Source: Astropecten irregularis
Taxonomy: Eukaryota; Echinodermata; Asteroidea; Paxillosida; Astropectinidae
Assembly: GCA_963971285.1 (NCBI GenBank)
Contig: OZ020262.1
Coordinates: 4,342,082-4,406,081, forward strand
Direction of reading: 5' to 3'
Length of the DNA: 64,000 bases
How positions within the stretch are numbered: the stretch's first letter is position 1; each line of letters starts with the position of its first letter. Positions 484-42,528 of the stretch are shown in pieces. The notes beneath the pieces are model-generated. The model was given only the letters and a program-made list of their open reading frames with translations. It was not told the DNA's origin and ran no database searches. The position numbers and the translations under genes were made by a program.

Positions 484-770
484 ATTGTCAGTCCCATGCG
501 GTGCCCACTTTTTAAGGAACAGAAAAAAAACACGGTATTTTCAAAATCGTTTCACCGTTATTTTTTATCTTTAAAAGATCAACATTATTTTCGGTCGTTG
601 GTTTTATTCTTTTCTGAATAAATACAACATTTCAGGCAAAAACACTTTCATAGTATGTTTCTACCATCACCATCTTTATACCCTGTAAGATATGTGTAAA
701 TCTATGGAGATTTCTGTTTTGGTATCCTACCAAAGTATGATAGTTCCTTTTAAGAACAAGAACAATCTTT
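484..770. mobile_element. TTAA-flanked MITE family B, left-truncated copy
   Basis: This matches the right part of the elements at 9,660-10,019 and 24,956-25,297 and ends in the family's right terminus (a CCAAAGTATGAT-like motif, then CCT and TTTTAAG). The left terminal repeat is missing. It lies just upstream of the discoidin exon at 785. Confidence 0.6.
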
Positions 771-784
771 GGATTTATTTGTAG

Positions 785-3700
785 TTGTGGCCGAAAACGA
801 ACATACATTGAGGACGAGGTACTTCGGTCCTCCTCCGAAGCCAGTTCCTGGGGAACACTGGATGCAAGCAGCCGTACGAGAGCTTAGCAAACAACACTGC
901 CCCGGTAAGCAGATCGATTTGAAATGTAAACCTGAATAAAAGTTATTAACAACTACAGTTTATGGCTGTTGGAAACACCTCATAAGGCTTTTCCGCACAT
1001 GAAATTATAAATTGATATATAAATATATAATGTGCTATACAAAGAAAGGGATCCCTCATACGGACAAATGAAAAAAATTATGATCCTAGCTTTTCCCTCT
1101 TTTGAATGAGGAGCTACTTCCTGTTTGGCCGGACGAAGAGGTCACAGAGGTCAACCAATGTGTCACAAAGAAAGACCTTGTCAAACATGGACTCAAGTTG
1201 GTGAAAGAATTATGATCCTAGCCGTCTTACCAATTTTAAATGAGGAGCTACTTCCGGTTTGACCGGAAGTAGAGGTCACAGAGCTCAAGTAATGTGTCAC
1301 AAAAAAAGACCTTGCCTAACATTCACTTTTGGTGAAAGAATCAACTTAATATCTCAATCCGTTGATTTTTTCAAATCGCTTGTAATTTGACACCTGATGA
1401 CGTCATGATGACGAAAAGTTTCGAGAGACAACTACCCTATATGGACTTCCTTCAGACCAAGTTTGGTTAAAATCGGCTGTTTAAATGTGACCAAAGTGGG
1501 GTCTAGAATGACCCTATGCTTTGTCTAGGGATTTTGGCGACAAGAAGAGGAAGAGGAAGAAGAGGAAGAAGAGGAAGGAAGAAAAAAAAACAGAACAAAA
1601 ATAAAGGCTCTTTGCTTGCGCGAAAAAGCCAATTATATCAATCTTTTCACCCCCAAATTGGCTGGGCCAAAACGACAAAAGGTTTCATGGCGTGTAGTAG
1701 GGTCCATTCAGCTTTCAAGGGATGGTTGTTGGGATGTGTTATCTGTGCAGCAGGCTAAAATAGCTAGAACTTAGAGTAATATATTTACATGATCAAAGTT
1801 TGAGGAATTCTCTATGACCATAGAATTTGGATGTTTCCCGGACGCAGACGTGAATACCAAGGGTGTGTAGTAATACAATGAGTGTTTCAATTGTGGGTGC
1901 ACCCAAGTAAATAGTCCCAAAATCCGTCCGCCCAGCTCATTAATAAAAGTTAAGCAGTCAATATATTTTAAATAAGAGAGTTCTGAGAGCTATACAAATG
2001 AGGGATTGGAGAAAATGGAACTGGACCTCCTGCCTGGACTCTTGGCTTCCATTTGAGACCATTTGTGATGCAATTGGGTGAGAAAGAAGTGGGTCTATTT
2101 CAGCCGCTTTGCAGAGGGATGTTTTTTGAAAATGGCTTCTTTGACTGGAGTGATCCATACCTTGTTTTAGGGGTGGTCAGCTGAGAATGAGTATATCTCA
2201 AAAATTAAATGGTCAACCCACCATAAAATGAAAAGAAAATGAAAGGTGACATGTTCATCATCATTTTGCTGTGCAACTTGAACAGCTGTGAGAGTTCTGT
2301 ATATTTTTTAATGATTTTTGAAGTATAAGGATTTATCACTGTTGTCTATGGGAGTTTATTTACTTGCGTGCAACCTTGTTATGCTTATGCAAACAATGGG
2401 AGACTTTGGAGAATCGGTCTTCAAATCAACAGCGCATGCGCACGCACGCTCAAAACAACGCGCGCATGCTCACAATTGCGTGCGCGTGCGCTGTTGACTT
2501 GAAGCCCGTTTCTCAAAAGTCTACCATTTATTGCACTTCAACGACGTAGTTTTAAGCACTTCAGTAAGTGCCTTTTAAAGTGCTATGTTAGTACGAATGG
2601 AAAGCATACCACTGAGCTTATTAATTAATAAAACTGGAAAGTTTATCGAGCTGTATTGAGTTGAAGTCGCCAAGCGCCCCTTTAAAGGTATAATACATAA
2701 TAATTGGTAAAGGTAAAAAAAAAACCAGCACCCACACTTTGTCTGATCCACCATGTACATGAAATAATAAACCTGTGCAAATTTGAGCTCAATCGGTCAT
2801 CTGAGTCACAAGAAAATAGCGAAAACCCAGCTCATTTTTTCCTCATTAAACATAAAGAATGATTTTGATCTTACCCCGAGATCAAATCTCTTTTCGGTCT
2901 TTGTTCTACTATTTTCTGGGAAATTACACCATTCCAGGCGGAAATATTTTACCGGTATGTTTCTACCAGCACCATCTTCATACCCTGAAAGTTCTATTTA
3001 AATCTGTGAACATTTCTGTTTCGGTATGTTACCAATACTGTACTGTACTGTACCTTTAATACAGTTTTTCCCCCTGGTTTTCAATACGTACATGAAAATG
3101 CGTGTGTAAATTACAAGCACAAGAAAAAGTTACTGGCGTCATACGGCGATTCAAAATAGTGCGCCACCACGAGTTTGCAACGCGTTGGCCAATTACAATT
3201 CAGGAATTTTTTTTCTCGACAAACTGCGCATCTTTCCACATGTGCAGTTTGTCGGCAAGATTAATTCCCCGCATTGTGATTGGCCAACGCATTGTAAACT
3301 CATGGTGGCGCACTATTGTGGGAATCGCCCGTATTGTTCGTACGTAGAGATCCATAGATGATGTTAAATCGACACATAAAGATTTCATGATGTGTTTTTA
3401 TGTTCATGTGTTCACTAAAAGGTGCAGCTGCGTGCTCGAAGGAGGAACCTCTTGGTATGGAGGATCGACGCATCCTGGATGACAGCATCACAGCTTCGTC
3501 TTATTTTCGCAATAATGCATGTTGTACACCGGCTAGGGCACGGTTAAATACCCAAGGTACTGAATATTAATTGTTTTGTGATATTCTGTTTTGTTCCTTT
3601 TTCATTTGATTGTTTTATTTATAAATTATTATTTTATTGTTTCTATTTGATCTTATTTTACTTATTCTTATTTAAATTTAATATCGTGCTTTGGTTTAAT

Positions 3701-4902
3701 TTGCCAAAGAAATGCAGCTTTAATGGGCAGAAATATCAAGGCAGTGTCCACCTTTTTGGAAAACGGTGAAACACGCCTACAGTATTTTTCAAATCTTTTC
3801 ACTGTTATTTTTGATCTTTAAAAAATACAGCATTTTGGCCAAAAAATTGAATAAAATAACGGTATGTTTCTACCATCACCATCTTTATACCATCTTAAGC
3901 TATAGGTAAATCTGTGAAGATTTCTATTTTGGTTTCCTACCAAAGTATGATACATGTGTATCTTTAAAATGAATGCAGAAAGTCATGGAATCCGACGTGA
4001 TGCTGATCTACTTCTTGATAACGTTTTTGAGGCCGTGTCCCAATTCTCTGGCTGCGGCTGCAAATTACGAATGTACCTATGGCAGCCACTAGCCAGTGAC
4101 TGCAGCCATTTCCATAGACTTATGTGTTATTTGCGGTCGGAGCCAGAGAATTGGGACACGGCCTAAGCATTCTATTTTATTGGTTGCTATATCTTAGCTA
4201 AATTGAAAATTGGCAAATCTGACTTTATATGAGCAGGTCCCGCTGCAGCATGGGTTGTCCAAACAATCGATACCAATCCGTGGATTCAAGTGGACTTCAC
4301 TACCACAGTCACCATCACCGGACTCATCACTCAAGACCGTGGAGAAGATGGATTTCCCAATGACCAGAGAGTGACCAAGTACCAAGTGGCGCAGAGTGAC
4401 GATGGTCAGTCATGGGATCACGTGACATATTCAAACGGGGCAATGATAACGGTCAGTAACTTTGAAATACATGTAATGAACATAAAGATCATCGATATAA
4501 GAACAATTAACAAGTAACTTTTAACCCCAAATGTTCGTCTTTCCTTTTTCTGTTTTTTCTTAAGCACATTGAGGAATCTTTCATAATGCGCTATTATTTT
4601 GAACTGTGTATATGTTTCCTTCAACATTTTAAAGCAAATTTTGACAAAAACATTTGAGACTTTTTCGACCATCAAACAACCACGCCTAAACGACTTAGAT
4701 TATTCTGACAAAGTTGACTCTTGTTATCCATCACTTTATTCGTTGTTTTATCATTTACATGCAGTTCCCTGGTAACACCGAGGAAGGCACTAACGTGACC
4801 ACTAGATTCCCAACCGCCCTGCAGACCAGATCCATTCGTATTCTACCCACTGAGTGGAACGAGCACTGCAGCATGCGCTTTGAGGTGATTGGTTGTTATT
4901 AA
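785..4902 (+). CDS. Secreted discoidin (F5/8 type C) domain protein, copy 1; exons 2-5 of 5, 5' partial
   Basis: Exons are 785-904, 3428-3556, 4237-4451 and 4765-4902 (stop TAA), all with AG/GT borders and phases 1,1,1,0 that join into one frame. The missing first exon should match the signal-peptide exon at 8,679-8,742 of the sister copy, giving 221 residues. Exon 2 encodes a proline-rich linker (FGPPPKPVPGEHW). Exons 3-5 encode one complete discoidin domain: the opening Cys and PLGMED motif, ITASSYF, WIQVDF, GLITQDRG, the FPGNT motif, IRILPTEW and the closing GC followed by Tyr and stop. Discoidin domains are extracellular sugar- or lipid-binding beta-barrels, so a secreted lectin-like role is likely, but the ligand is unknown. 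The usual Gly of the GMEDG motif is Arg here (GMEDR), whereas copy 2 keeps Gly. Exon 2 lies between repeats and intron 2 carries a Helentron-like element. Confidence 0.87.
953..1632 (-). mobile_element. Short Helentron-like element in intron 2 (reverse orientation)
   Basis: Read on the minus strand it starts TTGGCTTTTTCG, contains a CTT-rich run, then two 130-bp satellite units, and ends with a hairpin (CTGTT loop AACAG) and CTGTAG; the sister copy at 10,224 ends CTCTAG. These are the termini of the large concatemer at 12,901-20,880. Because both gene copies have it at the same place, it inserted before the gene duplication. It has no helicase or Rep coding sequence, so it is non-autonomous. 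Confidence 0.7.
1890..2420. repeat. Repeat block shared, inverted, with 16,440-16,920
   Basis: This stretch runs from the GTGCACCCAAGTAAAT motif through AATAAGAGAGTT and is present in the sister intron at 11,160-11,690. It appears again in reverse complement inside the third unit of the Helentron-like concatemer. It contains no convincing coding sequence. It may be part of a longer element of the same family or a captured piece. Confidence 0.65.
2686..3055. mobile_element. TTAA-flanked MITE, subfamily B2
   Basis: The element starts AGGTATAATAC, ends GTACTGTACCT, and is flanked on both sides by TTAA (2682-2685 and 3056-3059). Its internal sequence matches 11,954-12,318 (also TTAA-flanked), 24,572-24,923 and 6,605-6,895. 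The right half is shared with family B. It is too short to encode a transposase. Confidence 0.75.
3700..3966. mobile_element. MITE family B derivative
   Basis: Internal motifs such as AAAGAAATGCAGC and the right end CCAAAGTATGATAC match family B elements. The termini are eroded. The sister copy is at about 20,950-21,262. Confidence 0.55.
4030..4164. mobile_element. MITE family C with perfect 24-bp terminal inverted repeats
   Basis: The 135-bp element begins AGGCCGTGTCCCAATTCTC and ends with the exact reverse complement; the perfect arms are 24 bp. It lies in the intron before discoidin exon 4 and is also present in the sister copy, so it predates the duplication. Confidence 0.8.
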
Positions 4903-9659: not shown

Positions 9660-10019
9660 AGGCAATATCATACTTTTGTTTTTGTCAAAGAAATGCAGCT
9701 TCATGGGAAGAAATATCAAGTAACAGACAGTAACAGTCATCTGTGAAATTTTTACTCCCATACGGTGAGAAAACAGTGAAAAACGGCAACAGTATTGAAC
9801 AAAAATGTAACTATTATTTTTAATTTTTAAAAGATCAAAATTGTGGGGTTTTTTTGTCATTGGTTTTACTCTGGATCCTTTTCTGGATAAATACAACATT
9901 TCCGGCAGAAACACTTTCACGGTATGTTTCTACCATCACCATCTTTATAACCTGTAAGATATGTGTAAATCTATGGAGATTTCTGTTTTGGTATGCTACC
10001 AAAGTATGATATAGTACCT
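9660..10019. mobile_element. TTAA-flanked MITE family B, near full length
   Basis: Terminal inverted repeats (left AGGCAATATCATACTT, right CCAAAGTATGATATAGTACCT) are followed on the right by TTAA (10,020-10,023); the left flank is the near match TTGA. It lies directly upstream of discoidin exon 2 of copy 2. Confidence 0.7.
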
Positions 10020-10223
10020 TTAAAGAACAACAACAATATTTGGATTTATTTGTAGTTGTTGCCGAAAAAGAACATACATTGAGGATGAGGTACTTCGGTC
10101 CTCCTCCGAAGCCAGTTCCTGGGGAACACTGGATGCAAGCAGCCGTACGAGAGCTACGCAAACAACGCTGCCCCGGTAAGCAGATCGATTTGAAATGTAA
10201 ACCTGAATAAAAGTTATTAACAA

Positions 10224-10900
10224 CTAGAGTTTATGGCTGTTGGAAACAGCTCATAAAGCTTTTCCGCATATGATATTATAAATTGATATATAAATATATA
10301 ATGTGCTATACAAAGAAAGGGATCCCTCATATGGACAAATGAAAACAATTATGATCCTAGCTCTTACCACTTTTGAATGAGGAGCTACTTCCTGTTTGGC
10401 CGGAAGTAGAGGTCACAGAGGTCAAGCAATGTGTCACAAAGAAAGACCTTGCCAAACATGGACTTTTGGTGAAAGAATCATGATCCTAGCTCTTACCAAT
10501 TTTAAATGAGGAGCTACTTCCGGTTTGACCGGAAGTAGAGGTCACAGAGGTCAAGTAATGTGTCACAAAGAAAGACCTTGCCTAACATTCACTTTTGGTG
10601 AAAGAATCAACTTAATATCTCAAATCGTTGATTTTTTCAAATCGCTTGTAATTTGACACCTGATGACGTCATGATGGCGAAAAGTTTCGAGAGACAACTA
10701 CCCTATATGGACTTCCTTCAGACCAAGTTTGGATAAAATCGGCTGTTTAAATTGTGACCAAAGTGGGGTCTAGAATGACCCTATGCTTTGTCTAGGGATT
10801 TTGGCGACAAGAAAAGGAAGAGGAAGAAGAGGAAGAAGAGGAAGGAAGAAAAAAAAACCAGAACAAAAATAAAGGCTTTTTGCTTGCGCGAAAAAGCCAA
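10224..10900 (-). mobile_element. Short Helentron-like element, sister of 953-1,632
   Basis: Minus-strand order: TTGGCTTTTTCG start, CTT-rich run, two 130-bp satellite units with AGGTCACAGAGGTCA, 3' hairpin, CTCTAG end. Intronic in discoidin copy 2. Confidence 0.7.
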
Positions 10901-11159
10901 TTATATCAATCTTGTCACCCCCAAATTGGCTCGGCCAAAACGACAAAAGGTTTCATGGCTTGAAGTAGGGTCCATTCAGCTTTCAAGGGATGGTTGTTGG
11001 GATGTGTTATCTGTGCAGCAGGCTAAAATAGCTAGAACTTAGAGTAATATATTTACATGATCAAAGTTTGAGGAATTCTCTATGACCATAGAATTTGGAT
11101 GTTTCCCGGACGCAGACGTGAATACCAAGGGTGTGTAGTAATACAATGAGTGTTTCAAT

Positions 11160-11690
11160 TGTGGGTGCACCCAAGTAAATAGTCCCAAAATCCGTCCGCC
11201 CAGCTCATTAATAAAAGTTAAGCAGTCAATATATTTTAAATAAGAGAGTTCTGAGAGCTATACAAATGAGGGATTGGAGAAAATGGAACTGGACCTCCTG
11301 CCTGGACTCTGGGCTTCCATTTGAGACCATTTGTGATGCAATTGGGTGAGAAAGAAGTGGGTCTATTTCAGCCGCTTTGCAGAGGGATGTTTTTTGAAAA
11401 TGGCTTCTTTGACTGGAGTGATCCATACCTTGTTTTAGGGGTGGTCAGCTGAGAATGAGTATATCTCAAAAATTAAATGGTCAACCCACCATAAAATGAA
11501 AAGAAAATGAAAGGTGACATGTTCATCATCATTTTGCTGTGCAACTTGAACAGCTGTGAGAGTTCTGTATATTTTTTAATGATTTTTGAAGTATAAGGAT
11601 TTATCACTGTTGTCTATGGGAGTTTATTTACTTGCGTGCAACCTTGTTATGCTTATGCAAACAATGGGAGACTTTGGAGAATCGGTCTTC
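11160..11690. repeat. Repeat block, sister of 1,890-2,420
   Basis: Almost identical to the corresponding intron block of copy 1, and also related in inverted orientation to 16,440-16,920. Followed by a purine/pyrimidine-alternating GCGCATGCGCACG stretch near 11,700. No gene seen. Confidence 0.65.
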
Positions 11691-11953
11691 AAATCAACAG
11701 CGCATGCGCACGTACGCTCAAAACAACGCGCGCATGCTCACAATTGCGTGCGCGTGCGCTGTTGACTTGAAGCCCGTTTCTCAAAAGTCTCCCATTTATT
11801 GCACTTCAACGACGTAGTTTTAAGCACTTCAGTAAGTGCATTTAAAAGTGCTATGTTAGTACGAATGGGAAGCATACCACTGAGCTTATTAATTAATAAA
11901 ACTGGAAAGTTTATCGAGCTGTATTGAGTTGAAGTCGCCAAGCGCCCCTTTAA

Positions 11954-12318
11954 AGGTATAATACATAATAATTGGTAAAGGTAAAAAAAAAAACAGCACC
12001 CACACTTTATCTGATCCACCATGTACATGAAATAATAAACCTGTGCAAATTTGAGCTCAATCTGACATCTGAGTCACAAGAAAATAGCGAAAACCCAGCT
12101 CATTTTTTCCCCATAAAACATAAAGAATGATTTTGATCTTACCCCGAGATCAAATCTCTTTTCGGTCTTTGTTCTACTAATTTCTGGGAAATTACACCAT
12201 TCCAGGCGGAAATATTTTACCGGTATGTTTCTACCAGCACCATCTTCATACCCTGAAAGTTCTATTTAAATCTGTGAACATTTCTGTTTGGGTATGTTAC
12301 CAATCCTGTACTGTACCT
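11954..12318. mobile_element. TTAA-flanked MITE, subfamily B2
   Basis: Starts AGGTATAATAC and ends TACTGTACCT between TTAA at 11,950-11,953 and 12,319-12,322. Sister of 2,686-3,055. Confidence 0.75.
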
Positions 12319-13269
12319 TTAATACAGTTTCTCCCCCTGGTTTTTGATACGTACAGGAAAATGCGTGTGTGTACATTACAAGCACAAGAAAAAGTTACTG
12401 ACGTCATACGGGCGATTCACAATAGAGCGCCACCACGAGTTTGCAACGCGCTGGCCAATCACAATTCAGGAAATAATTTTTTTTCGACAAACTACCCATC
12501 TTTCCACATGCGCAGTTTGTCGGCAAGATAAATTCCGCGCATTGTGATTGGCCAATGCATTGCAAATTCATGGTGGCGCACTATTGTGGGAATCGCCCGT
12601 ATTGTTCGTACGTAGAGATCCATAGATGATGTTAAATCGACACATAAAGATTTCATGATGTGTTTTTATGTTCATGTGTTCAGTAAAAGGTGCAGCTGCT
12701 GCGTGCGCGAAGGAGGAACCTCTTGGTATGGAGGATGGACGCATCCTGGATGACAGCATCACAGCTTCCTCTTATTTTCGCAATAATGCATGTTGTACAC
12801 CGGCTAGGGCACGGTTAAATACCCAAGGTACTGAATATTAATTGTTTTGTGATATTCTGTTTTGTTCCTTTTTCATTTGATTGTTTTATTTATAAATTAT
12901 TGGCTTTTTCGATTTCAATCGGAAAAGGTATTGTTTTTGTTCTGATTTTTTTTCTTTTTGGCTTTTTCGATTTCAATCGGAAAAGGTATTGTTTTTGTTC
13001 TGATTTTTTTTTTTCTTCTTCTTCTTCTTCTTCTTGTCGTTTGAGTTACCATAGACTTTTTCTGGATGGCACTTTGGCTACTTTTAAATTGCCGATTTTA
13101 ACCAAACTTGGTCTGAAGGAAGTCAATATAGGGTAGTTGTCTCCCGAAACTTTTCGTCATTGTGACGTCATCAGGTGTCATGTGACAAGCAATTCAAATT
13201 TAAAAATCAAAATCTTCAAAAATCAACAAAAAATCAACGGTTTGAGATATTAAGTTCATTCTTTCACCA

Positions 13270-14215
13270 ATAGTGATTGTTAGGCAGGGTCTTTCTTTGT
13301 GACACATTGCTTGACCTCTGTGACCTCTACTTCCGGTCAAACAGGAAGTAGCTCCTCATTTAAAAGTGGTAAGAGCTATGATCATGATTCTTTCACCAAT
13401 AGACAATGTTAGGCAAGGTCTTTCATTTGTTACACATTGCTTGACCTCTGTGACCTCTACTTCCGGTCAAACAGGAAGTAGCTCCTCATTTAAAAGTGGT
13501 AAGAGCTATGGTCATGATTCTTTCACCAATAGACAATGTTAGGCAAGGTCTTTCATTTGTGACACATTGCTTGACCTCTGTGACCTCTACTTCCGGTCAA
13601 ACAGGAAGTAGCTCCTCATTTAAAAGTGGAAAGAGCTATGATCTTGATTCTTTCACCAATAGACAATGTTAGGCAAGGTCTTCCATTTGTGACACAATGC
13701 TTGACTTCTCTGACCTCTACTTCCGGTCAAACAGGAAGTAGCTCCTCATTTAAAAGTTGTAAGAGCTATGATCTTGATTCTTTCACCAATAGACAATGTT
13801 AGGCAAGGTCTTTTATTTGTGACACAATGCCTGACCTCTGTGACCTCTACTTCCGGTCAAACAGGAAGAAGCTCCTCATTTAAAAGTGGTAAGAGCTGTG
13901 ATCTTGATTCTTTCACCAATAGACAATGTTAGGCAAGGTCTTCCATTTGTGACACATTGCTTGACCTCTGTGACTTCTACTTCCGGTCAAACAGGAAGTA
14001 GCTCCTCATTTAAAAGTGGTAAGAGCTAGGATCATTATTCTTTCACCAAATATCAATGTTAGGCAAGCTCTTTCTTTGTGACACATTGTTTGACCTCTGT
14101 GACCTCTACTTCCGGTCAAACAGGAAGTAGCTCCTAATTTAAAAGTGGTAAGAGCTAGGATCATGATTCTTTTGTCAAAAGTCGATGTTAGGCAAGGTCT
14201 TTCTTTGTGACACAA
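13270..14215 (+). repeat. 130-bp tandem array A (7 units)
   Basis: The motif ACTTCCGGTCAAACAGGAAG recurs near 13,330, 13,460, 13,590, 13,720, 13,850, 13,980 and 14,109, so the period is 130 bp. Most units contain TGACCTCTGTGACCT. Units differ by only a few bases. Confidence 0.92.
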
Positions 14216-14689
14216 AAAATACAACCAATTCATGTGAGTTTATGATTAAAGGTGCACACTTCAAATGTATAAAACATAAGATCATAATCAACTGTCTTTT
14301 TGTGTGTATAAGGTTATGACAATTTTTCAATAAAAACGGAAACGGAAAAGCCTTGTGTTCTGTTTTCAACAGACACAACCTCTAGTTGGCTTTTTCGATT
14401 TCAATCGGAAAAGGTATTGTTTTTGTTCTGATTTTTTTTCTTTTTTCTTCTTCTTCTTCTTGTCGTTTGAGTTACCATAGACTTTTTCTACACGGCACTT
14501 TTGCTACTTTTAAATTGCCGATTTTAACCAAACTTGGTCTGAAGGAAGTCCATATAGGGTAGTTGTGTCCCGAAACTTTTCGTCATCATGACGTCATCAG
14601 GTGTCATGTGACAAGCAATTCAAATTTAATAATCAAAATCTTCAAAAATCAACAAAAAATCAACGGTTTGAGATATTAAGTTCATTCTT

Positions 14690-15640
14690 TCAACAATAGT
14701 GATTGTAAGGCAGGGTCTTTCTTTGTGACACATTGCTTGACCTCTGTGACCTCTACTTCCGGTCAAACAGGAAGTAGCTCCTCATTTAAAAGTGGTAAGA
14801 GCTATGATCATGATTCTTTCACCAATAGACAATGTTAGGCAGGGTCTTTCATTTGTGACACATTGCTTGACCTCTGTGACCTCTACTTCCGGTCAAACAG
14901 GAAGTAGCTCCTCATTTAAAAGTGGTAAGAGCTATGATCATGATTCTTTCACCAATAGGCAATGTTAGGCAAGGTCTTTCAATTGTGACATATTGCTTGA
15001 CCTCTGTGACCTCTACTTCCGGTCAAACAGGAAGTAGCTCCTCATTTAAAAGTGGTAAGAGCTATGATAATGATTCTTTCACCAATAGACAATGTTAGAC
15101 AAGGTCTTTCAATTGTGACACATTGCTTGACCTCTGTGACCTCTACTTCCGGTCAAACAGGAAGTAGCTCCTCATTTAAAAGTGGTAAGAGCTATGATCA
15201 TGATTCTTTCACCAATAGACAATATTAGGCAATGTCTTTCATTTGTGTTACATTGCTTGACATCTGTGACCTCTACTTCCGGTCAAACAGGAAGTAGCTC
15301 CTCATTTAAAAGTTGTAAGAGCTATGATCATGATTCTTTCACCAATAGACAATATTAGGCAATGTCTTTCATTTGTGTTACATTGCTTGACATCTGTGAC
15401 CTCTACTTCCGGTCAAACAGGAAGTAGCTCCTCATTTAAAAGTGGTAGGAGCTATGATCATTATTCTTTCACCAATAGACAATGTTAGGCAATGTCAATC
15501 AATTGTGACTCATTACCTGACCTCTGTGACCTCTACTTCCGGTCAAACTGGAAGTAGCTCCTAATTTAAAAGTGGTAAGAGCTATGATCATGATTCTTTT
15601 GTCAGAAGTCGATGTTAGGCAAGGTCTTTCTTTGTGACAC
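14690..15640 (+). repeat. 130-bp tandem array B (7 units)
   Basis: Same satellite in the second unit of the concatemer, with the CTTCCGG motif at about 14,760, 14,890, 15,020, 15,150, 15,280, 15,410 and 15,540. Confidence 0.92.
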
Positions 15641-15773
15641 AAATATTACCAATTCATGTGAGTTTATGATTAAAGGTGCACACTTCAAATGTATAAAACA
15701 TAAGAACAATTTTTTCAATAAAAACAGAAACGGAAAAGCCTTGTGTTCTGTTTTCAACAGACACAATCTCTAG

Positions 15774-17125
15774 TATTTTTTTTGAGTTTGTTCTGTGGCC
15801 CATAGACTTTGTACACAGATTTTTCTGCGCGGCACTTTGGTTACTTTAAAACAGCCGATCTTAACCAAACTTGGCCTGAATGAAGTCCGTATAGGGTAGT
15901 TGTGCCCCGAAACTTTTCATCATCATGACGTCAAAACTTGATTTTATATGATTTTTTTAAAATATTGTATAGCCCGTTCACTTTGTACACAGATTACGTG
16001 AACGTGGTCGTTGTACAAAACATAAAGCTCGATCAATTTCCCATACACTATGTACAGTGTACATGTAGGCCTACGTACGCAATTCACTGTGTATAACATA
16101 CAATGCACATGTCCGATTCCGTGACACAAAACGTCGTTTACACTTGCCATAGTTTGCACGTAATTCCTTTTATATATCATTAAATACCAGCACCAAATCT
16201 TAATCGAAATGCTATCGATGTAGGTTGCTCTGTACGCGAAAATATTGGTCCTTAAAAAAAACATACGATTTAAACAACATAAATCACAAGGCGCGATCAG
16301 ATCTTTGATTGCCTGGGTTATATATGCCGTTTTTTCATTTACTTCCTTATCATAGTTACCAGCAAAGCAGCGTAAATGCTGATTTTGACCCGTGTTTTGA
16401 CCAGACAACCACGCACGCGCAGCAATCTACTTATACCGTTTTCAGTACGTAAGGTTGCACCCAAGTAAATAAACTCCCGCGGACAACAGTGATAAATCCC
16501 CAAACTTCAAAAATCGTTGAAAAATATACAGAACTCTCACAGCTGTTCAAGTTGCACAGAAAAATGATGATGAACATGTAACCTTTCATTTTCTTTTCAT
16601 TTTATGGTAGGGTGACCGTTGTATTTTTGAGTTATACTCATTCTCAGCTGACCACCCCTAAAACAAGGTACGGATCACTCCAGTCAAAGAAGCCATTTAA
16701 AAAAAAAACATCCCTCTGCAAAGCGGCTGAAATAGACCCGCTTTCTCACCCAATTGCATCAAAAATGGTCACAAATGGAAGCCCAGACACCAGGCAGGAG
16801 GTCCAGTGCCGTATTTCTTCAATCCTTCATTTTCATAGCTCTCACAACTCTCTTATTTCAAATATATTGAGTGCTTAACTTTTATTCATGAGCTCGGCGG
16901 ACCCATTTTGCCACTACATGTATTTACTTGGCTGCACCCGTATTTTCCGAGCGCACGGTTTTGAATAACGCCCTCTTTTGATTAAAACGAGAAATCATTT
17001 CCCGAAGACGATATCATTTATTTGCTGAATCAAACAACATCAGCGATGTGTATTTAATTAGAGAAATATTCTATATCATATGCGGAAAAGCCATATGTGC
17101 TGTTTTCAACAGCCATAAACTCTAG
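15774..17125 (+). mobile_element. Third concatemer unit, divergent interior without satellite array
   Basis: It follows the CTAG at 15,773 and ends with a variant 3' hairpin (CTGTTTTCAACAG, then CCATAAACTCTAG). That terminus is the one used by the small intronic elements at 953 and 10,224. The interior has about 500 bp not seen elsewhere in the window (15,950-16,440) and then the inverted homologue of 1,890-2,420. No open frame resembles a known protein. Confidence 0.6.
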
Positions 17126-17883
17126 TTGGCTTTTTCGATTTCAATCGGAAAAGGTATTGTTTTTGTTCTGATTTTTTGGCTTTTCCGTGTTCAACGGAAA
17201 AGGTATTGTTTTTGTTCTGATTTTTTTTTTTCTTCTTCTTCTTCTTCTTGTCGTTGGAATTCCTATAGACAAAGCACATGTGCATTCTAGGTGCCACTTT
17301 TGCCACTTTTAAACTGCCGATTTTAATCAAACTTGGTCAGAACAAAGTCCCCACAGCGAAGTTGGTTGCCGAAACTTTTCGTCATCATGACGTCATCAGG
17401 TGTCACGTGACAGTGTCTTAAAGGGGCAAACTTCAGACATCAATTATGAACGAACCCTATGTCCGATTGAGTTGAAACTTGGTATGTATCTAAGTCGGGA
17501 AGTGTTATATCGAAAAATTGCAATGACGTCATCATGACGTCATTCCCTGATTTTTTATGATTTATTGAAATTTTGGGTCATTAAAGTTCTTTTAATGATA
17601 TCTAGTAAATGAAACAAGATATCTTTGAATTTCTTTTTGATAATTCTTCAGCATACACCATAGATGAACACTGCATAGACAAAAATTCAGTGACGTCATC
17701 ATGACGTCATAAAAAATGTGATTATTATAACACATAGTAGGAACGGCCGATGGCCTTGAAAATTGGTACATTGGTGAATTGGAGGTTCGGGGTTGTAATT
17801 ATGAAGTTACATCAAGACAGCGTCATTTTTTTTTTTTTTATGATTTTTTGAATATTTTTCACGCTATAGCCCATTGACTTGTA

Positions 17884-18250
17884 CAGGGCAAACAGGAAGT
17901 AGCTCCTCATTTAAAAGTGGTAAGAGCTAGGATCATGATTCTTTCACCAAATATCAATGTTAGGCAAGGTCTTTCTTTGTGACACATTGCTTGACCTCTG
18001 TGACCTCTACTTCTGGTCAAACAGGAAGTAGCTCCTCATTTAAAAGTGGTTACAGCTATGATCATGATTCTTTCACCAAAAGTGAATGTTAGGCAATTTC
18101 CTTCATTTGTGTCACATTGCTTGACCTCTGTGACCTCTACTTCCGGTCAAACAGGAAGTAGCTCCTTATTTAAAAGTTGTAAGAGCTAGGATCATGATTC
18201 TTTCAGCAAAAGTAAATGTTAGGCAAGGTCTTTCCCTGTGACACAAACAT
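17884..18250 (+). repeat. 130-bp tandem array C (about 3 units)
   Basis: A partial unit at 17,884 and full units with the CTTCCGG or CTTCTGG motif near 18,010 and 18,140, in the fourth concatemer unit. The leader of this unit has paired TGACGTCA motifs near 17,523-17,541 and 17,692-17,710. Confidence 0.85.
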
Positions 18251-18661
18251 GACCAAGTCAAGTGACTTCAGATTAAAGGTGCACTCTTCAAAAGTATAAA
18301 GTTTAATATCTTAATCAAATGTTTTTTTGTGTATAATGTTTAGAAAACATTTTAATATCATAAAACGGAAAAGCCATGTGTTCTGTTTTCAACAGACACA
18401 ATATCTAGTTTTTTCTTCTTCTTCTTCTTCTTCTTCTTGTCGTTTGAGTTACCATAGACTTTTTCTGGATGGCACTTTGGCTACTTTTAAATTGCCGATT
18501 TTAACCAAACTTGGTCTGAGGGAAGTCCATATAGGGTAGTTGTTTCCCGAAACTTTTCGTCATTGTGACGTCATCAGGTGTCATGTGACAAGCAATTCAA
18601 ATTTAAAAATCAAAATCTTCAAAAATCAACAAAAAATCAACGGTTTGAGATATTAAGTTCA

Positions 18662-19615
18662 TTCTTTCACCAATAGTGATTGTAAGGCAGGGTCTTTCTT
18701 TGTGACACATTGCTTGACCTCTGTGACCTCTACTTCCGGTCAAACAGGAAGTAGCTCCTCATTTAAAAGTGGTAAGAGCTATGATCATGATTCTTTCACC
18801 AATAGACAATGTTAGGCAAGGTCTTTCATATGTGACACATTGATTGACCTCTGTGACCTCTACTTCCGGTCAAACAGGAAGTAGCTCCTCATTTAAAAGT
18901 GGTAAGAGCTATGATCTTGATTCTTTCACCAATATACATTGTTAAGCAAGGTCTTTCATTTGTGACACATTGCTTGACCTCTGTGACCTCTACTTCCGGT
19001 CAAACAGGAAGTAGCTCCTCATTTAAAAGTGGTAAGAGCTATGATCTTGATTCTTTCACCAATAGACTATGTTAGGCAAGGTCTTTCATTTGTGACACAA
19101 TGCTTGACCTCTGTGACCTCTACTTCCGGTCAAACAGGAAGTAGCTCCTCATTTAAAAGTGGTAAGAGCTATGATCTTGATTCTTTCACCAATAGACTAT
19201 GTTAGGCAAGGTCTTTCATTTGTGACACAATGCTTGACCTCTGTGACCTCTACTTCCGGTCAAACAGGAAGTAGCTCCTCATTTAAAAGTGGTAAGAGCT
19301 ATGATCTTGATTCTTTCACCAATAGACATTGTTAAGCAAGGTCTTTCATTTGTGACACATTGCTTGACCTCTGTGACCTCTACTTCCGGTCAAACAGGAA
19401 GTAGCTCCTCATTTAAAAGTGGTAAGAGCTATGATCTTGATTCTTTCACCAATAGACTATGTTAGGTAAGGTCTTTCTTTGTGACACATTGTTTGACCTC
19501 TGTGACCTCTACTTCCGGTCAAACAGGAAGTAGCTCATAATTTAAAAGTGGTAAGGGCTAGGATCATGATTCTTTTGTCATAAGTCGATGTTAGGCAAGG
19601 TCTTTCTTTGTGACA
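18662..19615 (+). repeat. 130-bp tandem array D (7 units)
   Basis: The CTTCCGG motif recurs at 130-bp spacing from about 18,740 to 19,519. Two neighbouring units (about 19,030 and 19,160) are virtually identical, as expected from recent unequal exchange or slippage. Confidence 0.92.
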
Positions 19616-20024
19616 CAAATACAACCAATTCATGTGAGTTTATGATTAAAGGTGCACACTTCAAATGTAAAAAAATAAGATCATAATCAACTGTCTTTAT
19701 GTGTGTATAAGGTTATGCCAATTTTTTCAATAAAAACGGAAACGGAAAAGCCTTGTGTTCTGTTTTCAACAGACACAATCTCTAGTTTCTTCTTCTTCTT
19801 CTTGTCGTTTGAGTTACCATAGACTTTTTCTGGATGGCACTTTGGCTACTTTTAAATTGCCGATTTTAACCAAACTTGGTCTGAAGGAAGTCCATATAGG
19901 GTAGTTGTCTCCCGAAACTTTTCGTCATTGTGACGTCATCAGGTGTCATGTGACAAGCAATTCAAATTTAATAATGAAAATCTTCAAAAATCAACAAAAA
20001 ATCAACGGTTTGAGATATTAAGTT

Positions 20025-20720
20025 CATTCTTTCACCAATAGTGATTGTTGGGCAGGGCCTTTCTTTGTGACACATTGCTTGACCTCTGTGACCTCTACTT
20101 CCGGTCAAACAGGAAGTAGCTCCTCATTTAAAAGTGGTAAGAGCTATGATCATGATTCTTTCACCAATAGACAATGTTAGGCAAGGTCTTTCATTTGTTA
20201 CACATTGCTTGGCCTCTGTGACCTCTACTTCCGGTCAAACAGGAAGTAGCTCCTCATTTAAAAGTGGTAAGAGCTGTGATCTTGATTCTTTCACCAATAG
20301 ACAATGTTAGGCAAGGTCTTTCATTTGTGACACATTGCTTGACCTCTGTGACCTCTACTTCCGGTCAAACAGGAAGTAGCTCCTCATTTAAAAGTGGTAA
20401 GAGCTAGGATCATGATTCTTTCACCAAATATCAATGTTAGGCAAGCTCTTTCTTTGTGACACATTGTTTGACCTCTGTGATCTCTACTTCCGGTCAAACA
20501 GGAAGTAGCTCCTCATTTAAAATTGGTAAGAGCTATGATCTTGATTCTTTCACCAATAGACAATGTTAGGCAATGTCTTTCATTTGTGACACATTGCTTG
20601 ACCTCTGTGACCTCTACTTCCGGTCAAACAGGAAGGAGCTTCTGATTTAAAAGTTGTAAGGGCTATGATCATGATTCTTTCGCTAAAAGTCAATGTTAGG
20701 CAAGGTCTTTCTTTGTGACA
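20025..20720 (+). repeat. 130-bp tandem array E (5 units)
   Basis: Same satellite in the last unit, with motifs near 20,100, 20,230, 20,360, 20,489 and 20,619. The array ends about 160 bp before the terminal CTAG. Confidence 0.92.
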
Positions 20721-21322
20721 GAAATATTACCAAGTCACGTGAGTGTATGATTAAAGGTGCATACTTCAAAAGTATACAACTTAAGATCTTAATCAAATGT
20801 CTTTGTGTGTAAAGGTTATGTTGATTTTTCTATAAAACGGAAAAGCCTTGTGTTCTGTTTTCAACAGACACAATTTCTAGTTATTTTATTGTTTCTATTT
20901 GATCTTATTTTACTTATTCTTACTTAAATTTAATATCATGCTTTGGTTTAATTTGCCAAAGAAATGCAGCTTTAATGGGCAGAAATATCAAGGCAGATAC
21001 AGTGATAGTCATTTGTGAAATTGTCAGTCCCATACGGTGTCCACCTTTTTGGAAAACGGTGAAACACGCCTACAGTATTTTTCAAATCTTTTCACTGTTA
21101 TTTTTGATCTTTAAAAAATACAGCATTTTGGCCAAAAAATAAAATAAAATAACGGTATGTTTCTACCATCACCATCTTTATACCATCTTAAGCTATAGGT
21201 AAATCTGTGAAGATTTCTATTTTGGTTTCCTACCAAAGTATGATACATGTGTATCTTTAAAATGAATGCAGAAAGTCATGGAATCCGACGTGATGCTGAT
21301 CTACTTCTTGATAACGTTTTTG

Positions 21323-21457
21323 AGGCCGTGTCCCAATTCTCTGGCTGCGGCTGCAAATTACGAATGTACCTATGGCAGCCACTAGCCAGTGACTGCAGCC
21401 ATTTCCATAGACTTATGTGTTATTTGCGGTCGGAGCCAGAGAATTGGGACACGGCCT
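21323..21457. mobile_element. MITE family C, sister of 4,030-4,164
   Basis: Perfect inverted ends AGGCCGTGTCCCAATTCTC, same position relative to discoidin exon 4 as in copy 1. Confidence 0.8.
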
Positions 21458-22188
21458 AAGCATTCTATTTTATTGGTTGCTATATCTTAGCTAAATTGAA
21501 AATGGGCAAATCTGACTTTATATGAGCAGGTCCCGCTGCAGCATGGGTTGTTCAAACAATCGATACCAATCCGTGGATTCAAGTGGACTTCACTACCACA
21601 GTCACCATCACCGGACTCATCACTTAAGACCGTGGGGAAGATGGATTTCCCAATGACCAGAGAGTGACCAAGTACCAAGTGGCGCAGAGTGACGATGGTC
21701 AGTCATGGGATCACGTGACATATTCAAACGGGGCAATGATAACGGTCAGTAACTTTGAAATACATGTAATGAACATAAAGATCATCGATATAAGAACAAT
21801 TAACAAGTAACTTTTAACCCCAAATGTTCGTCTTTCCTTTTTCTGTTTTTTCTTAAGCACATTGAGGAATCTTTCATAATGCGCTATTATTTTGAACTGT
21901 GTATGAACTAACGCGACCACTAGATTCCCAACCGCCCTGCAGACCAGATTCATTCGTATTCTACCCACTGAGTGGAACGAGCACTGCAGCATGCGCTTTG
22001 AGGTGATTGGTTGTTATTAAACAAAGTAAACTCGAACTGAGATTAAGAGAAATGAAACAAGGTCAATGCTTGTGCACTCAGTTATGAATGATATTAATAA
22101 AATATTTAAACGAAGTAATACGATATAAACGAAATAAGTTTTCCACTCAGTAGTTCACAAGCCGATAGGAGAGTACCGAGGGGGTCAA

Positions 22189-33650: not shown

Positions 33651-34271
33651 ACGTCTCCTTTAAGTCTTCAGTTTATGGAAAGAAAGATAAGTGGGTCTGA
33701 AACTTCTGCAGACGAGACCTGTGGTAGTATACACCGTTTCTCACCAAGTCCTACGAGACTGCATTAGTACGTAGCGGAGTAAGTGTTCTCGTGCGAAAAT
33801 GCACAAGACAGAATATTGATGACGTCATTATCCAACCCAGTACGGATTGCACCATGTTCTCTTCACTTGCTCTTCTAGGGAAAATGCAACAAAAGTTGCG
33901 AGGAAAATGTAATGAGAGTGTGATAGTTTTTATTATTAGATACAGAAATATTTGTGTTCCACGACTACACCCGTCTTCTTTATTTGTGTATTGTAATTCA
34001 ATATAATAGAAGAATGGGTACGAAGGCAAATGTATACTACATGTATAACTTAATACACTGCAATTTAGTGGAGGAAAAATACTCGTAGTTTCCTTTGTCG
34101 CTCTGTAAATTAATTTATGCGCGAATTACAGACACAGACGGGCAAGGTGAACGATCATTATATACATGCATTAAAGAAAAGACACATATTGAACTGTGTG
34201 TGACTGTAGAAATTGAACTTTATGAGATTATGGCATTCTATTCTGGGATGTATAACTTCGTGTAGTGTTGT

Positions 34272-34278
34272 TATAAAA
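34272..34278 (+). promoter_or_regulatory. TATA box of GPCR 1
   Basis: TATAAAA lies 113 bp before the first in-frame ATG. The same box at exactly the same distance precedes GPCR 2 and GPCR 3, and the flanking 150 bp are nearly identical in all three units. Confidence 0.6.
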
Positions 34279-34384
34279 CCAGCAAGTGGTGTGTGAATCT
34301 TGGTCATTTCTAAGGTGGAGACTGACGATGCGAACCAAGAGGCGATACATTGAATAGTCAAGTCATTTCCTTATCTCGTGGTTC

Positions 34385-36754
34385 ATGTACAACGCACAAC
34401 TTCACAGTCCACCACCACTCCTAACTAAACGACAGGGCACAATCATGGATACGACACATACAACGCAAACAAACTCCTCGGGATGGTGGACAGAGATCGA
34501 AGTCAGTCACTTTAATACAACACACGAAATCACTTCAGCACATTGCGACAATTCCTCCAACTTTACCGAGAATCCAACGACACCTCACCCGTCTGGAATC
34601 GGCCAAGTTCAGTCAATGGACGCGGTGCACATCGCTGTCGCCGTAATCTGCTGCACCGCGGTGTTAATCACTGTATTGGGCAATCTCCTTACTCTGTATG
34701 CGTTCTGCGTCGACCGTCGTTTACGAACATACACTAACTATTATATCGTTGGCCTTTCCATCGCAGATTTCGTTGTTGGTGCGTGCGTCATGCCAATTTA
34801 TGGCACATACGTGGTACTTGGGCACTGGCCGTTTAGTGATGTAATGTGCGAGATTACTGGATACGTTACCCACGTCGCTCTCCACACCTCCGAACTTGGC
34901 ATTATCAACCTGTCCCTGGACCGATACCAGGCCGTCTGTCACCCCCTGAAGCACCTACGGCAACGCTCCATGCGTCATGCAGTCACCAAGATCTTCATTG
35001 TCTACATCGGCTCCATCATCCTCTGGCTGCCCTACACCGCCCTGTGGCCTTCCATCGCCGGATTCCGTAGCATTCCTCCAGGATACTGCTACGCTCAGTA
35101 TGCGATAGATAGCTTCTTCTTCAGCGTCTTGGCCAAGTTCTTGGTGATCTGGATGCCAATGACCGTCATCACTGTACTGAACCTGTGCATTTTCCTGACC
35201 ATAAGAAAGACGAAGCGCCGTCGTAAAGGTCTCACACAGGACAAGGCAGTAAGAAGTGCGGTCAACTCTGCCAAAGTCACAGAAGGAGCGAACGCCACAC
35301 CAAATCAGACCGAGAAATGTCGAGATACCGAGATGGCGACGACCAGAGCCAGACGACAGGGGACGGCAAAAGCCAAGGAGAGCCACCGGGCCAACCTCAC
35401 CATGGCCCTCATCTTCATCGCCTTTCTGATCACCTCTACACCGTATTCCGTGTCCAGTTTCATCCACACCTTCTGCACGAATTGCATGCACCCAGTTATC
35501 TTTCCTGTAAGTATTATACCAATTATAATGTATGGTCTCGTACCACATACATATTGTTCACTATATAGGCCTATCCAGACTGTCTGATGTTCGAGGTAGT
35601 AATTTTCTTTTGACCAGATGATGCTATATCACTATGATGAAAATGCGACCCTACGGACAGCATATACTCAAACAAACCGTAATTGTACAAGCAATAAACT
35701 GCTGCAAACTGCTCATCAACCAAAAAAACGACCTGAAATGTATAACATGTTTTGAGTTCAAAGACCTGACGCGTTTCCTCGTAGGATCTTTATGGATAAA
35801 GATCCTGCTAGAATAGACACTCATCAGGCCCTTCTAACTCCAAGCAATGATCGCAACTGTACTGAATTTAACGCATTTAGCTTTGTTGTATCAAATAATC
35901 ATTTACAGCTGATTTAAATGTATCCATATCAGGAGAATTAGGAAAACCATGGGCAGGTCGGGAGTTGCACAAACGACTGGTCCTCGAAAAATGTAATAAT
36001 ATTATGACATTTATATTGCGCTCTACTCTACTGCGCATTACAAATTTATTATTATCCCTGGTCATCAGGCCATAATTAACATTCCTGCAAACATCTCAAC
36101 TCCCTGGGGAGTATACAGCTCCGTGATACCGTATTCAGTGCACAGAGGCTAATCAAACCACAAAGCCATCACTACCCTCAAATGTACCCATTTACACCTG
36201 GGTGAAGAGGAGCAATATGTGACAGAGCGTCTTTCCCAAGGACGCAAGCACCATTAACCCATGGCTGGATTCGAACCCACAATCTGTACATTGACAACAA
36301 GACTTTGAGTTCAACGCGCCAGACCACTAGGCCATAATACCCCGACACAATCGTGTAAGATGAAATGACTTGTGGTTTGACTTTGATACAACCACAAAAG
36401 GGTGAGCAAATGAAGTAGATCTCGTGACTGTCACATGTGTTGGTGAAGGAGGAAGAATATCTTTCATCTCATCAGATGACACGACTGAGATGGAGATCAT
36501 CCAAAGCAATCAAAGTCTCTGGTAGAAAACAGAGAATTTCTGTTTTTGTGTTACTGCCCTCACCAGTATGATAACTCCATGTCTTTGTATCATTTCCCCA
36601 GATGACCGCTTTTCTGGTATACATGAACAGCGCCGTGAATCCGTTCTGCTACGCCGTGGCTAACCCCCTCTACCTAGCGGCATTCAGCAAGTTGCTGTGC
36701 CGTAGCAGACGGCAGAAGTCAGGGAGCGACAGTTCGTCCAGGCGATTGCAGTGA
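34385..36754 (+). CDS. Muscarinic-like class A GPCR, paralogue 1 (2 exons, 424 aa)
   Basis: Exon 1 is 34385-35506 (donor GTAAGT after TTT CCT) and exon 2 is 36602-36754, joined in phase 0. The ATG at 34,445 has the better context (A at -3, G at +4) and could be the true start. The N-terminus has four or more N-glycosylation sites. Seven helices are visible: GN in TM1 (N100), LSIADF in TM2 (D128), Cys155 and DRY (179-181) in TM3, WLP in TM4 (W214), P258 in TM5, TSTPY in TM6 and NPFCY in TM7 in exon 2. Layout, the LTIRKTKRRRKG loop start and NPxCYA resemble muscarinic and other amine receptors. However, position 3.32, normally Asp in amine receptors, is Thr162, and 6.48 is Ser351 rather than Trp, so a classical amine ligand is unlikely. 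The third intracellular loop is 25 residues longer than in paralogues 2 and 3. G-protein-coupled signalling at the plasma membrane is inferred; the ligand is unknown. Confidence 0.9.
35696..35840 (-). mobile_element. 145-bp element with hammerhead-ribozyme-like core
   Basis: Flanked by an 8-bp direct repeat CAAGCAAT (35,688-35,695 and 35,841-35,848); GPCR introns 2 and 3 lack it. On the minus strand it contains CTGATGAG (35,827-35,820), a long self-pairing arm (AGGATCTTTATCC..AAAGATCCT), and GAAACGCGTC (35,777-35,768), the order of a hammerhead core. The other part matches 9,283-9,350. Similar ribozymes are known in Penelope-like elements and retrozymes. Confidence 0.55.
36225..36345 (-). repeat. 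tRNA-derived SINE-like sequence in GPCR 1 intron
   Basis: The minus strand reads ATGGCCTAGTGGTCTGGCG (A box) and, about 45 bases later, GGGTTCGAATCCAGCC (B box), as in a Leu/Ser-type tRNA head with a long variable region. It is not present at the matching place in the other GPCR introns. Confidence 0.6.
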
Positions 36755-42168: not shown

Positions 42169-42521
42169 TGAGAGTGTGATAGTTATTAGATACAAAAATA
42201 TTTGTGTTTCACGACTACACCCGTCTTCTTTATTTGTGTATTGTAATTCAATATAATAGAAGAATGGGTACGAAGGCAAATGTATACTACATGTATAACT
42301 TAATAACTGCAATTTAGTGTAGAAAAAAATACTCGTAGTTTTCTTGGCCGCTCTTTAAATTAATTTATGCGCGAATTAAAGACGCAGACGGGCAAGGTGA
42401 ACGATCATTATATACATGCATTAAAGGAAATACACGTATTGAACTGTGTGTGACTGTAGAAATTGAACTTTATGAGATTATGGCATTCTATTCTGGGACG
42501 TATACCTTCGTGTAGTGTTGT

Positions 42522-42528
42522 TATAAAA
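42522..42528 (+). promoter_or_regulatory. TATA box of GPCR 2
   Basis: TATAAAA, 113 bp before the first ATG, conserved in position and context with GPCR 1 and GPCR 3. Confidence 0.6.

Follow-up and report, generated by a model that had tools for sequence, protein, structure and literature searches.

Tandem Helitron arrays with repeated 5' termini are, in the literature as it was available to us, commonly attributed to replication past or without a terminator. The plant arrays of Xiong 2016, as summarised in PMC12628747, have multiple 5' ends, many of them with a single 3' end, and are explained there by rolling-circle amplification. In the accessible part of the Fusarium study (PMC5148889), the Helitron2-like FoHeli elements have multiple 5' termini, with short 5' ends duplicated; self-insertion is proposed, from a number of cases, and the mechanism is left open. 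Among non-autonomous elements, the closest are the HINEs or DINE-1-like elements which, in the available text of PMC4067079, have a TT target, a 5' inverted repeat, a 3' palindrome, a microsatellite, an autonomous partner and, in some, central tandem repeats. The oyster Cg_HINE (PMC7492417), as far as its accessible text goes, combines the same module order with satellite-like central repeats, and occupies T-rich TT sites without duplication, with some insertions into other elements.

We analyzed a block with these structural likenesses, including the duplicated 5' ends, and with a candidate autonomous partner, in the window (the whole 64,000-nucleotide stretch of Astropecten irregularis DNA studied here). 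Its termini, TT(GG)...CTAG, are those given in PMC4067079 for the proto-Helentron, unlike those of the HINEs in that paper; its microsatellite is TTC, whereas that of Cg_HINE has mostly four-base motifs; and it has five 5' ends and six 3' ends, in contrast to the plant arrays. Stacks of detached 5' stubs and downstream bodies, found repeatedly in this genome, are not described in the accessible text of either HINE paper. We conclude, with a probability of about 0.84, that non-autonomous Helentrons (HINEs), inserting one after another, built the block as a nest, and that it is not one replicated concatemer.

The inserted block and its empty site

The block measures 7,981 bp (12,901-20,881, forward strand) and lies at a T^T in an intron of an animal gene, in the second of two gene copies (copy B). 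Removing 12,901-20,881 from copy B restores the sequence of copy A over about 131 bp to the left and 41 bp to the right of the junction. The left flank may end at 12,899, 12,900 or 12,901, three equivalent placements; in the T^T register, TGGC...CTAGT is bounded by host AATTAT on the left and TATTTT on the right, and the empty target in copy A is T(3,629)^T(3,630), on the forward strand. No host bases were lost and none were duplicated beyond the dinucleotide, although the insertion can be described equivalently as a two-base TT duplication. The original prediction of a clean insertion of Helentron-like character, with its empty site in the same window, is thereby borne out. The block is also, as predicted, younger than the gene duplication, since copy A keeps the uninterrupted site; it is datable in the sense of an upper bound only, taken from the divergence of the gene copies. 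The left part of copy A (606-3,744, forward strand) corresponds to 9,875-12,900 joined to 20,882-20,996, with 86 mismatches in 3,151 aligned positions, and divergence is 2.7-4.3% in three of the four aligned blocks. Among 40 listed matches to a 201-bp empty-site query, 3 are the two window copies, and the remaining 37, at 78-87% identity, extend over no more than about 120 bases. Window comparison also identified an older single relative of the family in copy A (953-1,632, reverse strand) with a counterpart in copy B (10,224-10,900, reverse strand); being present in both copies, it was inserted before the duplication. The host genes are of animal type, with three 7tm_1 frames, PAN and F5/8C.

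Units, stubs and junctions of the block

A motif scan of the block located six 3' ends (hairpin plus CTAG), finishing at 14,385, 15,773, 17,125, 18,408, 19,785 and 20,880, and five 5' starts, at 12,900, 12,958, 14,386, 17,126 and 17,176. The six 3' hairpins of the original prediction exist, but only five of them are internal, the sixth being the outer end. Recurrence of the termini elsewhere was confirmed in a search of the genome (475.7 Mb, 168 contigs): the 3' pattern occurs exactly at 1,048 places and the 5' core, with up to one mismatch, at 910, while the reversed controls gave 0 in both cases, so the terminal patterns are not due to chance. (Genome-wide intact 5' ends with a variable gap are left out because TTC repeats were counted several times.) The 5' sequence GGCTTTTTCG or GGCTTTTCCG has an inverted counterpart, CGGAAAAGCC, close to the 3' end. 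Both 5' hairpins fold better than 200 of 200 shuffles, and the 3' hairpin is weaker, with 10 of 200 shuffles folding as well. The units carry a run of TTC microsatellite and central monomers of about 130 bp.

All units lie on the forward strand. U1 (12,959-14,386), delimited by motif scan and unit comparison, is a complete HINE that runs from the 5' hairpin through the T-run, the TTC microsatellite and seven monomers of about 130 bp to the 3' hairpin and CTAGT; U2 (14,387-15,774; motif scan), also complete, directly abuts the CTAG of U1. U4 (17,177-18,409) is a complete HINE assigned by head comparison to another subfamily. The other three units have no 5' end: U3 (15,775-17,126; motif scan and start pattern), U5 (18,410-19,786; unit alignment) and U6 (19,787-20,881; copy comparison and identity with U2). 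Two 5' stubs of 50-58 bp stand apart from their bodies, which begin again further downstream within the T-run: stub a (12,901-12,958) is continued at 19,787 by U6, and stub b (17,127-17,176) is continued at 18,410 by U5. Stub a plus U6 is identical to the uninterrupted U2 across the 5' end, the T-run and the microsatellite, and stub b plus U5 aligns with U1 except for the lengths of the T-run and the microsatellite. The 5' hairpin and body of U4 differ from stub b and U5, which belong together to one subfamily. Given this identity of stub a plus U6 with U2, we read U6 as split by the interior of the block and U5 as split by U4, that is, as nested insertion. The outermost element (stub a plus U6) sits at the host T^T, and the remainder of the block interrupts its T-run some 47-60 bp in from the 5' end; U4 interrupts the T-run of stub b plus U5 in the same way; and the other junctions are 3'|5' joins (CTAG|TTGGC) or, before U3, CTAG|TATTTT.

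The original prediction held instead that the units were joined head to tail. A rolling-circle concatemer, in which one element is replicated past its terminator and the multimer is inserted once, would account for the common strand of the units, for the complete 3'|5' joins at U1|U2 and U3|stub b, which could equally well be circle junctions, for the heads of U1, U5 and U6, which are merely 1.3-1.8% apart, and for the constant-period arrays that 5'-less U3-type units form elsewhere. At only these two of the five internal junctions are both the 3' end and the 5' end complete, and the block is mostly not a concatemer because three of its six units have no 5' end while two of these have a matching spare stub upstream. 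Nor are the units copies of one replicated element, since the heads of U4 (19.5-21.4%) and U3 (23-26%) diverge too far from those of U1, U2, U5 and U6, set beside the 2.7-4.3% between the gene copies in three of four aligned blocks; U4 and U3 are other subfamilies. One replicated circle cannot yield stub/body pairs across families, and the matches at U4-U5 and at stub a-U6 speak against it as well. We therefore consider a single concatemer very unlikely. The block also does not show several 5' ends per 3' end, as a multiple-5'/single-3' Helitron array would; with U3 set aside, there are five of each.

In contrast to its head, which is as close to those of U1 and U5 as given above, U6 has a tail some 13% away from theirs, and the U2 head is 3.6-4.0% away; either recombination occurred, then, or the insertions had diverged sources. 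The tail/head contrast of U6, together with variants common to the monomer arrays (seen by eye), would also suit a history in which one or two insertions were followed by unequal crossing-over, or by gene conversion, among tandem units. However, crossing-over between homologous units neither mixes families nor leaves 5' stubs cut in the T-run whose matching bodies lie further to the right, and five other loci (L021, L022, L035, L039 and L045) suggest that the same stub/body grammar exists in isolated two-element nests. We regard this explanation as highly improbable.

Stub and body pairs across the genome

Stacks like the window block stand at many independent loci, which makes an assembly artefact less likely. 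Genome-wide, we counted 251 stub-to-5' junctions and 313 CTAG|5' joins (reversed control 0 for each), and 40 stretches contain 64 family-a 5' ends, 29 of them within another 5' stub and 10 directly behind CTAG. In 19 of 26 scored pairs (27 found, 1 no call), the innermost stub is of the same type as the first truncated body other than U3, against a shuffled mean of 9.66, and none of 20,000 shuffles reached 19. Seven pairs disagree (L009, L012, L013, L025, L028, L044 and L046). The pairing rule chose a body nearer than the stub's own in two rows: one L012 row, which counts as a disagreement, and stub a of the window, which was set against U5 and counts as an agreement. Among 47 truncated bodies that have an intact relative (from L002, L006, L009-L048 and the window), 39 begin again within a tract of T and C only; seven of the other eight start T-rich with another letter, and the one at L027 starts at a 5' end missed by the scan. 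The T-run and microsatellite together contain only 16-17 of an element's 174-185 TT sites. At L021, L022 and L045, a second-family 5' stub is followed by a GGCTTTT element and then by the second-family body, and at L038 the second-family 5' end and body are uninterrupted; at L034, two different stubs are closed in mirrored order (relatives 97.9% and 100%). Set against the FoHeli cases in the accessible text, the cross-family pairs and the stub/body agreement at many loci speak for nesting.

Alternatively, the 8-kb nest could have been assembled at another locus and have arrived here in a single move of everything between its outermost 5' and 3' ends. In favour of this, the block has ordinary Helentron borders on both outer sides, combinations of a stub with U1 (at several loci) and of a stub with U4 occur elsewhere, so that a double-5' unit could have moved as one, and transposition of double-5' units is proposed in the available part of the Fusarium study (PMC5148889). 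Against this, of 40 candidates scored for stub b, U4 and the first 292 bp of U5, none among the matches listed but the block itself exceeds 89% from end to end (one reaches 93%, from position 48). The double 5' ends before U1-like units at L003 and L005 have the T-run broken at points other than that of stub a, and a composite would have had to pass five internal 3' terminators. We consider a single composite move unlikely. The counts of ends fit nesting less well: in the 29 clusters with at least two 5' ends, the 5' and non-U3 3' counts are equal in only 10 and within one in 20. These figures are rough, since some stretches stop before their cluster does and the scan covered one family's 3' ends. 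One cluster (L029) has 11 5' ends and 2 3' ends, so multiple-5' units may also travel or amplify.

The most likely account of the nest is that HINEs that prefer Helentron ends as targets accumulated at this site once the gene had been duplicated. Rolling-circle copies would be brought into T^T targets by the Rep/helicase of a co-resident Helentron, with a strong preference for those at resident Helentron borders: the T-run that follows the 5' hairpin, and the CTAGT^T edge. A landing in the T-run would cut a short 5' stub off the resident and leave its body downstream, giving the order 5'5'5'-body-3'-body-3'-body-3', in which the latest arrival is closed first; since only one strand carries the T-run, orientation would be fixed, and the block would have grown in place after the gene duplication. 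The many stacks with fitting stubs and bodies point to another route to tandem arrays, repeated landing in Helentron ends, which predicts clustering, allows the insertions of each stack to be placed in relative order, and suggests that resident ends are recognised as targets by the Rep machinery. Within the literature searched, the scale of the stacking and the 5'-less unit appear to be new.

U3-type units and Rep-bearing relatives

U3 starts exactly behind CTAG (the register is ambiguous by one base), and the CTAG|TATTTT join is fixed at the start of 12 of 12 U3-type units (11 CTAG, 1 CTTG). Genome-wide, the head occurs right behind CTAG at 265 places (35-base pattern, one mismatch), against 271 matches to the head pattern alone (32 bases, one mismatch). 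Given the fixed start and these counts, we reject the reading of U3 as a body separated from a third stub; it is a separate kind among the 5'-less units. Elsewhere, U3-type units form true head-to-tail arrays with a period of about 1.35 kb. U3 contains a TIR-bordered piece (GGTTGCACCCAAGTAAATA / TATTTACTTGGCTGCACCC; 16,453-16,939, forward strand) with relatives at 1,918-2,377 and 11,186-11,645; a later insertion in the window only is unlikely, as the spacing elsewhere already fits a unit containing the piece.

U3-type units could be rolling-circle parasites without a 5' end that pass from one terminator to the next, a proposal we consider possible but less likely than not. Replication would begin where the 3' end of an upstream Helentron is nicked, at CTAG|T, and halt at the unit's own CTAG, and the product would be placed into other CTAG|T ends, so that units would be found solely behind other elements and would grow as true tandem arrays. 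The 5'-less unit makes this route testable and, if the proposal is true, the U3 route and the T-run habit would together make all borders of resident Helentrons landing sites.

Rep-bearing Helentron relatives with the same 5' end, expected from the original prediction, do exist. Across 644 aligned positions, the first 636 bp of U4 match at 92.9% the 5' region of L032, which adjoins a Rep match. Eighty-two matches merged to 40 loci, of which 18 have a Helitron_like_N match (149 were used) within 15 kb downstream, compared with 2 of 40 upstream. All 18 are on the opposite strand, and opposite-running frames are likewise reported for some FoHeli transposases in the available text of PMC5148889. 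A smaller test with a partial Rep list, superseded by the full lists, linked 17 of 28 chosen 5' places to Rep, again all on the opposite strand. Exo_endo_phos in the candidate partner scores 22.3 bits, under the cut-off of 24.5. At C1, judged by position only, 5' ends at 12,936,403/456 are followed by Rep at 12,946,321 and by 3' ends at 12,955,090 and 12,956,203.

Insertion into one copy of a duplicated gene

The block of inserted DNA at 12,901-20,881 lies in copy B of a tandem gene pair. Copy A aligns as copy B minus the block across ~131 bp to the left and 41 bp to the right of the junction, which bears out the original prediction of a clean T-T insertion (T^T in copy B) with an empty site in copy A; equivalently, the block can be described as a GGC...CTAG element with a two-base TT duplication. 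As had been proposed, the 8-kb block was probably inserted after the gene duplication, traceless loss from copy A being less likely. In the aligned blocks, the gene copies mismatch at 86/3,151, 6/868, 24/753, and 38/877 positions. The family itself predates the duplication, since an older single minus-strand member sits at the equivalent place in both copies (953-1,632 in A and 10,224-10,900 in B).

The block consists, in order, of stub a (a detached 5' end), the complete units U1 and U2, the 5'-less U3, stub b, the complete U4, and the 5'-truncated U5 and U6, which makes one more 3' end (six) than 5' starts (five); with U3 set aside, there are five of each. Each complete unit opens with a 5' hairpin followed by GTTCTGA and a T-run; behind these come a TTC microsatellite, the head, the 130-bp monomers (seven in U1 and U2, three in U4), and a 3' hairpin ending in CTAG. 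The truncated U5 and U6 carry seven and five monomers. None of 200 shuffles folds as well as the 5' hairpin of either type; 10 of 200 do as well as the 3' hairpin, which is weaker.

When the interior is removed, stub a joined to U6 gives an uninterrupted U2 5' region that matches down to the unusual T8-C-T6 tract and the length of the microsatellite, while stub b joined to U5 gives a U1-like 5' region with different T-run and microsatellite lengths. U4, between stub b and U5, is ~21% from U5 in head and tail and has its own hairpin type. From these sequence comparisons, the block is most likely a nest of inserted elements, with a fit that is not tidy throughout: the U6 tail is ~13% from those of U1 and U5, yet their heads differ by at most 1.8%; the U2 head stands 3.6-4.0% away. 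The original prediction of a head-to-tail concatemer mostly gives way to nesting, given the stub/body fits and the diverged U4; head-to-tail arrays do exist in the genome, but for U3-type units, of which the window holds a single copy.

Growth in place is the simpler reading. Alternatively, the block may have come from a hidden donor elsewhere: the searches each scored ~40 candidates, among which stub-plus-U1 matches elsewhere reach up to 95%, but the double 5' ends of two other stretches read from the genome (L003 and L005) have their T-run broken at other points than in the window. A single query spanning stub b, U4, and 292 bp at the start of U5 gave, among ~40 candidates, end-to-end matches only to itself and to two places at 89%, plus one match of 93% from position 48.

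Stacks of stubs and bodies across the genome

The termini recur elsewhere: in the 475.7-Mb assembly, the 5' core (≤1 mismatch) occurs at 910 places (reversed control 0) and the 3' pattern at 547 + 501 (control 0). A stub with the next 5' end ≤12 bases on is found at 138 + 113 places, and CTAG followed directly by a 5' end at 172 + 141 (control 0 for each). We read 40 stretches from part of contig C1 and from C8 up to 30.16 Mb, in listing order of the 5'-core places. The recurrent pattern is stubs, then one complete unit, then truncated bodies, as in L039 (two 5' ends and two bodies), L010 (three and three), and L043 (5-5-5-body-3-body-3-body-3). Of 64 family-a 5' ends in these stretches, 29 lie within another 5' stub, 10 right behind CTAG, and 25 elsewhere, several of these last sites being, by eye, Helentron ends of other families. 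Where an intact relative exists, the truncated body resumes in pure T/C sequence in 39 of 47 cases; seven of the remaining eight are T-rich at the start with another letter, and the one in L027 resumes at a 5' end overlooked by the scan.

The balance between 5' and 3' ends is not perfect: their numbers are equal in 22 and within one in 36 of all 47 clusters, many of which are single elements, and equal in 10 and within one in 20 of the 29 clusters with at least two 5' ends; these counts are rough, as some stretches stop inside a cluster and second-family 3' ends fall outside the scan. In L029 (C8:472,100-478,100), eleven consecutive 5' ends precede a single complete unit, with two 3' ends only, an excess which argues that another process also acts, such as travel of multiple-5' units.

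For stub/body pairing, the innermost stub was set against the first truncated non-U3 body rightward, which was typed from its closest relative at a different locus; five 5' types were distinguished. Of 27 such stubs, 26 had a body that could be typed, and L001, L003, L004, L005, L007, and L008 (overlapping, or chosen for U1 likeness) were excluded. Types agreed in 19 of 26 pairs against a shuffled mean of 9.66, and 19 was reached in 0 of 20,000 shuffles. The seven disagreeing pairs are in L009, L012, L013, L025, L028, L044, and L046. The rule sets the window's stub a against U5, not U6, which scores as agreeing (U6, too, has type 5a), and one L012 stub against an inner body, which scores as disagreeing. 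The clearest cases are the cross-family nests L021, L022, and L045, with a second-family stub (AGGTGTTCGG...GTTCGAG) left of a GGCTTTT element and a second-family body right; L038 carries the second-family 5' end (AGGTGTTCGG...GTTCGAG) and body uninterrupted. L034 has two different outer stubs, and the bodies that close them come in mirrored order, with relatives 97.9% and 100% identical.

A Fusarium study proposes self-insertion as the origin of multiple 5' termini and, for one Metarhizium case, leaves both double insertion and circle replication possible (PMC5148889). The DINE-1 paper reports the view that tandem clusters arise by terminator bypass and notes distantly related Helitrons side by side (PMC4067079). 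A 2025 review describes plant arrays, many with multiple 5' ends and one 3' end, and, in flies, tandem formation through insertion-site preference (PMC12628747). In the literature searched, mostly non-subscription, we found no account of stub/body stacks at such scale or of a CTAG-tied 5'-less unit.

5'-less units and a candidate autonomous partner

Each of the 12 U3-type heads examined begins right behind a 3' end (11 CTAG, 1 CTTG), and these 3' ends have different tail types. Genome-wide, the U3 head occurs at 265 places with CTAG in front versus 271 for the head alone, the two patterns differing in length. A neighbor 1,300-1,380 bp away accompanies 52 of the first 100 listed places, in runs of up to nine; head-to-tail arrays of nine units (C2:522,770-533,594, spacing ~1,349 bp) and six units (C9:8,292,481-8,299,305, ~1,358 bp) are examples. 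This regular period points to a real head-to-tail mechanism in this genome for the 5'-less unit. Part of U4 is matched six times at C27:8,111,360-8,116,373, with a spacing of 910 bp, a further tandem array derived from a piece of a Helentron.

The Helitron_like_N (Rep) domain has 149 matches in the genome, many within frames of >3,000 codons. U4 matches the 5' region of L032 at 92.9% over 644 aligned positions, and a further part of that region gave, among the matches listed, 82 that merged into 40 loci. A Rep match lies ≤15 kb downstream in 18 of the 40, on the opposite strand in all 18 (one match counting for two loci); 22 have none, and in two a match lies upstream. Opposite-orientation frames are known in Helentrons and Helitron2, according to the Fusarium study (PMC5148889). 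On C1, a pair of 5' ends is succeeded by a Rep on the opposite strand and then by a pair of 3' ends; by position, this would be a HINE (a non-autonomous Helentron) with an autonomous element nested inside it. The L032 endonuclease match scores under the domain cut-off. Upstream of the C8 Rep, L049 (C8:2,456,600-2,459,400) has a 933-codon open stretch with OTU and Herpes_teg_N-like domains.

Other features of the window

Between the gene copies, 3,744-4,611 (A) and 21,037-21,904 (B) are 99.3% identical, against 94-97% in neighboring stretches, with a 41-bp indel immediately to the left; gene conversion is perhaps behind this stretch. The F5/8 type C exon has an in-frame stop in copy B (21,526-21,807) and none in copy A (4,233-4,514), which may mean that copy B is decaying. 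Rhodopsin-type 7TM receptor frames occur three times in tandem (33,847-35,286, 42,167-43,825, and 49,655-51,400), with ~90-95% DNA identity. A ~145-bp palindrome-like stretch occupies 58,823-58,967 (inverted self match 93%), and a 42-bp tandem repeat with 96% matches at 63,677-64,000 runs past the window end.
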